DNA from: a virus
IMG/VR virus record: IMGVR_UViG_3300027969_003822
Span: 1 to 32,025 of that record
DNA: 32,025 bases
Strand: one strand, 5' to 3'
Under the pieces are notes generated by a model. It saw only the letters and a program-made list of their open reading frames with translations, made no database searches and was not told the origin of the DNA. Of the stretch, positions 113 to 3,525 are shown in pieces. Numbering within the stretch: the stretch's first letter is position 1; each line of letters begins with the position of its first letter. Both the position numbers and the translations under genes were made by a program.

Positions 113-205
113 GAGTAGTAATGCAGCGGGGTTGGTCCTGCGACCAGCCTTGAAAACTGGGTTCTCTGTAATGGGGATGGGGTTCGACTCCTCTGCTACT
201 CGCCA
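113..205 (+). tRNA. tRNA-Ser(TGA)
   Basis: Class II tRNA of 93 nt with a long variable arm. Acceptor GAGTAGT pairs with GCTACTC, the anticodon loop carries TGA, the discriminator is G as expected for serine, and CCA is encoded. Confidence 0.9.
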
Positions 206-228
206 AAGTTTCAGTAGTAATGTTTTAT

Positions 229-321: not shown

Positions 322-416
322 AGTAGCGAGCATTGGTATGCGGCTGGGTTTTATAAACCTGGGAGAGTGGTCAGATGGGCTGCAACGATAGAGTTCGAAT
401 CTCTACGCTACTACCA
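322..416 (+). tRNA. tRNA-like gene, anticodon unclear (TAT?)
   Basis: The acceptor arms AGTAGCG/CGCTACT, T stem TAGAG/CTCTA, T loop TTCGAAT and encoded CCA are clear, and GCA/TGC can form a short D stem. The length, 95 nt, is that of a class II tRNA. The anticodon hairpin GGTTT/AAACC centres on TAT in a TTTATAA loop, which would read the Ile codon AUA, but isoleucine tRNAs do not have long variable arms. About 27 nt lie between anticodon and T stems without an obvious variable-arm helix. It may be a diverged Leu or Tyr tRNA, an Ile tRNA with an insertion, or a decayed gene. Confidence 0.5.
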
Positions 417-594: not shown

Positions 595-1092
595 ATGAAA
601 ATCATAGAACTATTAGCGGAATCTGCAAGTCAATTTGATCCAATACTAATTAAATTTTGGAACAAACATCAAGATAAATTACCTGAATATTTTAGAACAG
701 GCGAAACAGGATGTGTTGAAGCATCAAATGATTTAGCCGATGAAATAGGTGGGTTTGCTGAAGTAGTGCCAATAGGTAGATTTTCAGGTAGTAAAAAAGT
801 AGGCGGATGGTTATATACAGATACTCCGCAGACAGATTTAGAATCATTTACTCAGAAAGAAATAATTGCTATGAAAAAGCAAGGATTAGATCCTAATAAA
901 GAACAAGACAGAGTAACATTTATAACTAACAACAAACTAGAAGATGAATTCAAATGGATTCCCCATAGTTGGGTAGAAGTCCGTGGTAAGATTCTAGATC
1001 CTAGTGGATTCTATGTTGATGGTAGGAGTGGTCAGTTTGATCGCCTAGTCAACAACAAATCAAATTTATTAAAACGATATACATATTTTTAA
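595..1092 (+). CDS. Transglutaminase/papain-like cysteine peptidase candidate
   Basis: 165 aa. A cysteine in the context TGCVEASNDLADEIG (about residue 40), a histidine in PHSWVEVRGK (about 123) and an aspartate in ILDPSG have the order and spacing of the Cys-His-Asp triad in transglutaminase-like and papain-fold domains. This is a motif reading; the family is not certain. The N-terminus MKIIELLAES resembles the capsid-targeting leader of T4 internal head proteins and contains an L-A-E tripeptide of the type cut by T4 prohead protease, so packaging in the head and injection is a possible role. The start is fixed by the octamer five bases upstream. It sits between tRNA-Ile and tRNA-Trp. Confidence 0.6.
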   Translation: MKIIELLAESASQFDPILIKFWNKHQDKLPEYFRTGETGCVEASNDLADEIGGFAEVVPIGRFSGSKKVGGWLYTDTPQTDLESFTQKEIIAMKKQGLDPNKEQDRVTFITNNKLEDEFKWIPHSWVEVRGKILDPSGFYVDGRSGQFDRLVNNKSNLLKRYTYF

Positions 1093-3231: not shown

Positions 3232-3525
3232 GCGACTGTGGTGAAATAGGTAGACACAAGAGACTTGAGAGTAGAATTTGAGTGCCCTACTGGAAATGGT
3301 AGGAGTAGAACTCGTCAAATTCGGTGAAAGCTTAACTGCTAATACCGAGCCAAGCTGAATAGAAATATTCTGAAGGTGTAGAGACTAGACGGCGAGCATC
3401 TAAGGCATTAATGCTATGATGAAGGTATAGTCCAGACCACCAAACTGAAAGGGTAGCGAAAGCTATAGTGGTAAGAAAATCTCTCGGCGAAGGCCATGCC
3501 GGTTCGATTCCGGCCAGTCGCACCA
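3232..3525 (+). tRNA. tRNA-Leu(TAA) split by a group I intron
   Basis: The exons are 3232-3266 and 3476-3525. Joined, they give a class II tRNA with acceptor GCGACTG/CAGTCGC, anticodon stem AGAGA/TCTCT around CTTAAAA (anticodon TAA), T loop TTCGATT and encoded CCA. Without splicing the anticodon loop does not exist. The intron lies between U34 and A35, the position known from cyanobacterial and plastid tRNA-Leu(UAA) introns. A consensus promoter stands directly upstream. Confidence 0.92.
3267..3475 (+). ncRNA. Group I (IC3, Azoarcus-like) self-splicing intron
   Basis: 209 nt with no ORF. By memory it resembles the 205-nt Azoarcus tRNA-Ile intron, with the conserved block GAAGGTGTAGAGACTAGACGG near 3372-3392 and CTAAGGC and AGGTATAGTCCAG downstream. 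P7 is GACTA (3383-3387) with TAGTC (3428-3432). P1 pairs the 5' exon ACTT with guide sequence GAGT (3280-3283), with a G.U pair at the splice site. P2 (CCTAC/GTAGG) and P9 (GTAGC/GCTAT, 3453-3466) each end in a GAAA tetraloop, as in Azoarcus. The last intron base is G (3475), as group I splicing requires. Confidence 0.92.

Follow-up and report, generated by a model that had tools for sequence, protein, structure and literature searches.

A group I intron in a phage tRNA-Leu(UAA) gene is a member of a large phage-centred intron family

The window, by which we mean the whole stretch of DNA analyzed here, is a 32,025-base IMG/VR viral fragment with 20 tRNA genes, including a tRNA-Leu(UAA) gene split by an intron. 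An earlier note on this DNA had assigned the gene to a phage. Two of the encoded proteins, a MoxR-type ATPase and a DUF2201 protein, have their closest counterparts (35–49% identity) in jumbo phages, namely, those of the PA5oct group, Phosso and Atu_ph07. With introns allowed, ARAGORN called a tRNA-Leu(taa) at 3232–3525 with a 209-nt intron in the anticodon loop, while no tRNA was called at 3232–3525 with introns off. Removal of 3267–3475 left a CUU/AAAA junction, i.e., U34 joined to A35, and a canonical 85-nt tRNA-Leu with an encoded CCA, which aligned with the intronless tRNA-Leu(taa) of Pelagibacter phage Mosig over 85 of 85 columns with zero gaps. PA5oct, a relative of the window's phage, also has intronless tRNA-Leu genes, and the Mosig and PA5oct genes, as empty-site alleles, fix the intron boundaries. 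The isotype, the intron length and the U34/A35 insertion point given in the earlier note are thus borne out, and its view that the tRNA depends on splicing is supported. ARAGORN often mis-splits intron-bearing tRNAs (false "Tyr ata"), and boundaries in the relatives described below were re-derived using the anticodon stem, the exon U and the G at the intron end, which leaves a small number of unusual isotype assignments unsure. Among Leu codons in the contig, TTA was the most frequent (280 of 696); a tRNA-Leu(UAA) would therefore be useful to the phage, which may also depend on it. The features of the gene, with the support for each (comparisons are over the 41 viral introns introduced below), are as follows.

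3232–3266, + strand: 5' exon of tRNA-Leu(UAA), ending in C32 U33 U34 (ARAGORN with introns on; gapless spliced alignment)
3267–3475, + strand: group I intron, 209 nt, terminal G at 3475 (covariance models RF00028 and R1; covariation)
3280–3282, + strand: internal guide GAG, pairing with exon CUU 3264–3266 as P1 with the splice-site U.G (invariant in 41 of 41; follows the exon triplet)
3286–3303, + strand: P2 hairpin with GAAA loop (both-side changes in 7 of 7 pairs)
3311–3316, + strand: P3 5' strand, partner 3391–3396 (both-side changes in 6 of 6 pairs)
3320–3349, + strand: P4–P5, with P4 3320–3325/3344–3349 and P5 3329–3331/3338–3340 (covariation count)
3350–3376, + strand: P6–P6a, with P6 3350–3351/3375–3376 and P6a 3357–3361/3366–3370, GAAA loop (C-G to G-C exchange in P6)
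3383–3387, + strand: P7 5' strand, the G-binding helix, partner 3428–3432 (100% of cells paired)
3391–3396, + strand: P3 3' strand (covariation count)
3397–3421, + strand: P8 hairpin, 3397–3400/3418–3421 plus an inner helix (covariation count)
3428–3432, + strand: P7 3' strand (covariation count)
3436–3472, + strand: P9 region, with outer helix 3436–3440/3468–3472 and hairpin 3453–3457/3462–3466, GAAA loop
3476–3525, + strand: 3' exon of tRNA-Leu(UAA), A35 through the encoded CCA (ARAGORN with introns on; gapless spliced alignment)

We examined the intron with covariance models and by comparative analysis of its helices. The Rfam model RF00028 (Intron_gpI) matched it over the full model length with 52.2 bits (E 1.1e-10), only just above the gathering cut-off of 50, which accords with the earlier assignment of 3267–3475 to the group I introns. 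This general model is unreliable for this intron family: the intron at LR756501:190319–190509 (L001) was missed in an E-value scan and scored 56.6 bits in another mode. The hallmarks of the class are present, namely, the P3–P8 and P4–P6 domains, the P7 G-binding helix, the 5' U.G and the 3' terminal G. Architecture and insertion site would place the intron in subgroup IC3, the Rfam 15 search having given the general RF00028 only. The GAAA loops described in the earlier note on P2 and P9 are both there, together with one on P6a, and the absence of an ORF was likewise confirmed, the longest stop-free stretches being 27 codons on the + strand and 47 on the – strand.

The P1–P9 structure was drawn on the window and then counted over 41 viral tRNA-Leu introns with <90% identity. 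Across this set, 94.5% of cells were paired, compared to 30–42% when the partners were slid by 1–3 columns; since the structure had been fitted to one of the 41, this comparison is biased in its favor, which does not explain the compensatory changes. Both sides had changed in 48 of 64 pairs, including 5 of 5 in the inner P9 hairpin, and the covariation score of 0.513 (0.161 for shuffled alignments) was reached in 0 of 500 shuffles. The P3/P7 pseudoknot is kept: 96.3% of cells were paired in P3 and all in P7, with both-side exchanges, and the only variation in P7 consisted of compensated exchanges, such as a swap from A-U to U-A, found at its final pair in 12 of the introns. No variation at all was seen in P1 (CUU/GAG, including the splice-site U.G) or at the terminal G. 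A coupling between the L2 GAAA loop and an 11-nt receptor in P8 was suggestive but not significant (p 0.12). We also built a covariance model, R1, on the viral introns. The window, as a training member, scored 224 bits, and held-out ORF-less relatives scored far above chance, with 192 bits for Atu_ph07, 167 bits for the HTVC120P capsid intron, 137 bits for the tRNA-Lys intron of Gordonia phage Daredevil and 131 bits for the tRNA-Arg intron of a Microcoleus phage.

Together, these results point very strongly to 3267–3475 as a functional group I intron like those of bacterial tRNA genes, belonging to a phage-centred lineage, that would splice itself out and almost certainly works as a ribozyme. 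In the reaction predicted from its sequence, the guide GAG would pair with exon CUU in P1, which defines the 5' splice site; P7 would bind an external G, which would then cut after U34; and the CUU released by this cut would attack behind the intron's last base, G3475, so that U34 is ligated to A35 and the tRNA regains the anticodon UAA, which reads UUA. As a ribozyme the window intron is ordinary; what is unusual is its location, and it belongs to a large family centred on phages.

The extent of this family was assessed with an exon-blind scan of IMG/VR using the 20-nt core AAGGTGTAGAGACTWGACGG, which returned at least 121 loci; among the matches listed, 87 were in tRNA genes, 65 of them tRNA-Leu(UAA). 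Two IMG/VR scans, the second being Leu-biased, and four reference records together gave at least 131 viral tRNA-Leu(UAA) introns, the window included. Among named huge phages, such introns were found in Atu_ph07 (490 kb), LR756501 (735 kb) and LR756511 (595 kb), the intron of the last containing an HNH ORF; those of Atu_ph07 and LR756501 share the site and family of the window intron. Other intron-bearing phage tRNAs were Lys UUU (Daredevil among them), Arg UCU, Thr UGU, Glu UUC and Ser UGA. GenBank already annotates the split tRNA-Arg of Microcoleus phage My-WqHQDG, while the Atu_ph07 and Daredevil annotations have no tRNA at the intron-bearing spots and the LR756501 record carries no annotation. 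Of the non-tRNA copies with exons joined in our analysis, most gave long capsid-type reading frames, and in HTVC120P the intron is flanked by two capsid ORFs. At the viral-contig loci L175, L183, L182, L147, L149, L127, L166 and L128, the intron interrupts capsid-type frames of ~200–330 codons after joining. The unannotated Daredevil tRNA-Lys(UUU), at L325:639–950, contains a 238-nt group I intron and lies near an integrase gene; this locus could overlap an attachment site.

Related introns also occur outside phages. The conjugative IncI plasmid pA68_p0 of Escherichia coli carries an unannotated intron-bearing tRNA-Leu (L316:1966–2262; 160.8 bits with R1), so plasmids also carry tRNA introns. 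Seven bacterial loci (L201, L252, L251, L256, L216, L262 and L263) have introns with the AAGGTGTAGAGACTWGACGG core in Thr(GGU), Thr(UGU), Tyr(GUA) and Lys tRNAs, in addition to the Leu, Ile, Arg(CCU) and Met isotypes, although some of these calls are unsure.

We then asked how the window intron is related to other introns, using a tree of 141 introns over 205 columns, in which base composition differs between phage and bacterial rows. The window fell in a set of 55 rows (support 96), with phage tRNA-Leu introns as its nearest rows. It took in 44 of the 45 introns from phage tRNA-Leu genes, along with those from phage Lys, Thr, Arg, Ser and Met tRNAs and from capsid genes, and the proteobacterial tRNA-Leu introns lay outside it. 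Over the whole tree there were seven label changes between phage and bacterial introns, the great majority of phage copies being separate from the proteobacterial ones. A single, provisional cyanobacterial row came out on a long branch within the phage part of the tree and is a lead only. The cyanobacterial tRNA-Leu(UAA) intron shares with the window's the gene, the U34/A35 site and the P1–P9 plan, but the window's is phage-borne and a pattern scan of viral contigs for the cyanobacterial-type core gave zero matches; a provisional cyanobacterial intron sequence found no match as a query in phage or plasmid records.

These data bear on whether the phage simply acquired a bacterial tRNA-Leu together with its intron from a host chromosome in recent time, in which case there would be no phage lineage. 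Phages often carry host-like tRNAs, and related introns do occur at the same site in Proteobacteria (59 of the 109 bacterial tRNA copies that contain the 20-nt core), sharing with the window the GAG guide and the 20-nt core block. However, the introns closest to the window's among the matches listed were all in viral contigs, with identities from 0.94 to ~0.80, the tRNA-Leu locus is syntenic with viral contig L040, and nearly all phage Leu introns group apart from the proteobacterial ones. We therefore consider a recent pick-up from the host very improbable.

Several observations bear on the mobility of these introns. Large inserts were present in 22 of the at least 131 viral tRNA-Leu introns, which are 679–945 nt long, many with HNH-type ORFs, and two of five insert ORFs tested reached the Pfam HNH cut-off. 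In contigs sharing little with the window beyond tRNAs, introns were 84–90% identical but tRNA exons just 73–89%, although exons are normally the conserved part of a tRNA gene. Among phage pairs with an intron identity of 0.85–0.95, mean exon identity was 0.82–0.84 and the intron was the more similar part in 84–86%, compared to 0–31% of bacterial pairs; as both samples were picked by intron core, the contrast carries more weight than the absolute values. Close proteobacterial introns thus have exons at least as conserved as the introns, while phages show the reverse. This pattern fits, and suggests, movement of the intron among phage tRNA genes, whereas movement between phages and bacteria looks rarer. 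The earlier note had seen in a self-splicing phage tRNA a route for introns between bacteria; the route between phages finds the stronger support, and that between bacteria the weaker, with most phage copies apart from the proteobacterial ones.

The internal guide offers a further view of this spread. Guide and exon match as GAG/CUU, GUG/CAU, GGG/CCU and GCC/GGU, and among introns with non-CUU exons the guide paired in 28 of 34, compared to 3.2 expected from shuffling. The lineage would reside mainly in phage tRNA-Leu(UAA) genes and would also have reached capsid genes and phage tRNAs of other isotypes, probably by HNH homing and rarely by guide changes; HNH endonucleases are still present in some relatives, while the window copy is ORF-less. 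It is conceivable, though in our judgment quite unlikely, that the intron is instead retained because it benefits the phage, for example because the anticodon loop is concealed from defences that cut tRNAs or because splicing times the tRNA supply. Most of the phage isotypes with introns have U34 (Leu UAA, Lys UUU, Arg UCU, Thr UGU, Glu UUC and Ser UGA), and some of them, for instance tRNA-Lys, are among the known targets of anticodon nucleases. Yet the GAG guide requires CUU in the exon, a triplet available in U34 tRNAs, so that site constraint accounts for the same isotype pattern; moreover, the spliced tRNA would show a normal anticodon loop, and relatives also sit in capsid genes.

A still less plausible reading is that of an intron in decay and a tRNA that is never produced. 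The host presumably has its own tRNA-Leu(UAA), which could make the phage copy dispensable, but the window intron retains nearly all model pairs, with one mismatch (T100–T115 in alignment numbering), and it retains the G-binding helix, the U.G at the splice site and the G at its end, in a tRNA with a canonical cloverleaf and an encoded CCA; nor would decay keep covariation.

Finally, the earlier note had described the intron as Azoarcus-type and nearer to the Azoarcus tRNA-Ile intron, but an origin by transfer of such an intron into tRNA-Leu is the least credible reading, and tree, guide and insertion site speak against the affiliation in the present sample: the Azoarcus tRNA-Ile(CAU) intron is also a small anticodon-loop group I intron with the common core block, GAAA loops and general architecture, yet it differs in isotype, site (U36/A37), guide (GUG) and 3' end, and introns of its type form their own group, which lies within the bacterial part of the tree (support 100, stem 0.59). 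The core block, which had been read as an Azoarcus sign, is non-discriminating, as AAGGTGTAGAGACTWGACGG is common to many tRNA isotypes in both bacteria and phages.

Taken more broadly, the sequence comparisons lead us to favor, by a narrow measure, the notion that group I introns have in phage tRNA genes a major habitat that has been overlooked, in which a Leu(UAA)-centred phage lineage homes among large phages, spreads to tRNAs with C32-U33-U34 (where GAG fits CUU), retargets its guide and jumps to capsid genes. This lineage may also act as a reservoir, with introns passing between it and the tRNA genes of bacteria. Lateral transfer of an unspecified kind has long been invoked for the patchy occurrence of tRNA-Leu introns in bacteria, and a phage-borne lineage provides a testable carrier for it. 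Where split tRNAs are overlooked, the tRNA repertoire of a phage will also seem smaller than it really is. The cultured phages Atu_ph07, an Agrobacterium phage, and Daredevil offer direct experimental systems.

The known phage introns in protein genes (T4 td and nrdB, DNA polymerase, terminase, capsid) are likewise phage-borne, some with HNH homing endonucleases, and the HTVC120P capsid intron is a close relative of the window's, but here the host gene is a tRNA. According to a 2014 review, the phage introns known at that time were all located in genes for proteins, despite the many phage tRNAs (Hausner et al. 2014, PMC3984707), a picture that differs from the common occurrence in phage tRNAs observed here. 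We found no report of phage tRNA introns in open-licence papers, although subscription journals or supplements may hold some. The word "intron" is absent from the huge-phage paper (PMC7162821) and from a virus tRNA survey (PMC6409571), and a 2025 preprint on huge gut phages (PMC12363816) lists 2,513 group I introns, with the word "tRNA" absent. The phage-centred tRNA intron family seems not yet to have been described.

Several minor features of the window emerged from comparison with L040. At 322–416 (+ strand) lies an odd class II tRNA with an ambiguous anticodon, called Ile(tat) here and as a stop-reading tta in its L040 homologue, which could be a suppressor or non-canonical tRNA. A tRNA-Ser(UGA)-like sequence at ~113–206 (+ strand) was not called by ARAGORN, while L040 has a called tRNA-Ser(tga). 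A 165-aa ORF at 595–1092 (+ strand), between tRNA-Ile and tRNA-Trp, is missing in L040 and had no family match. A free-standing homing-endonuclease-like ORF (phrog_314) at 1642–2358 (– strand) is also missing from the otherwise syntenic L040 and is thus probably a recent insertion.
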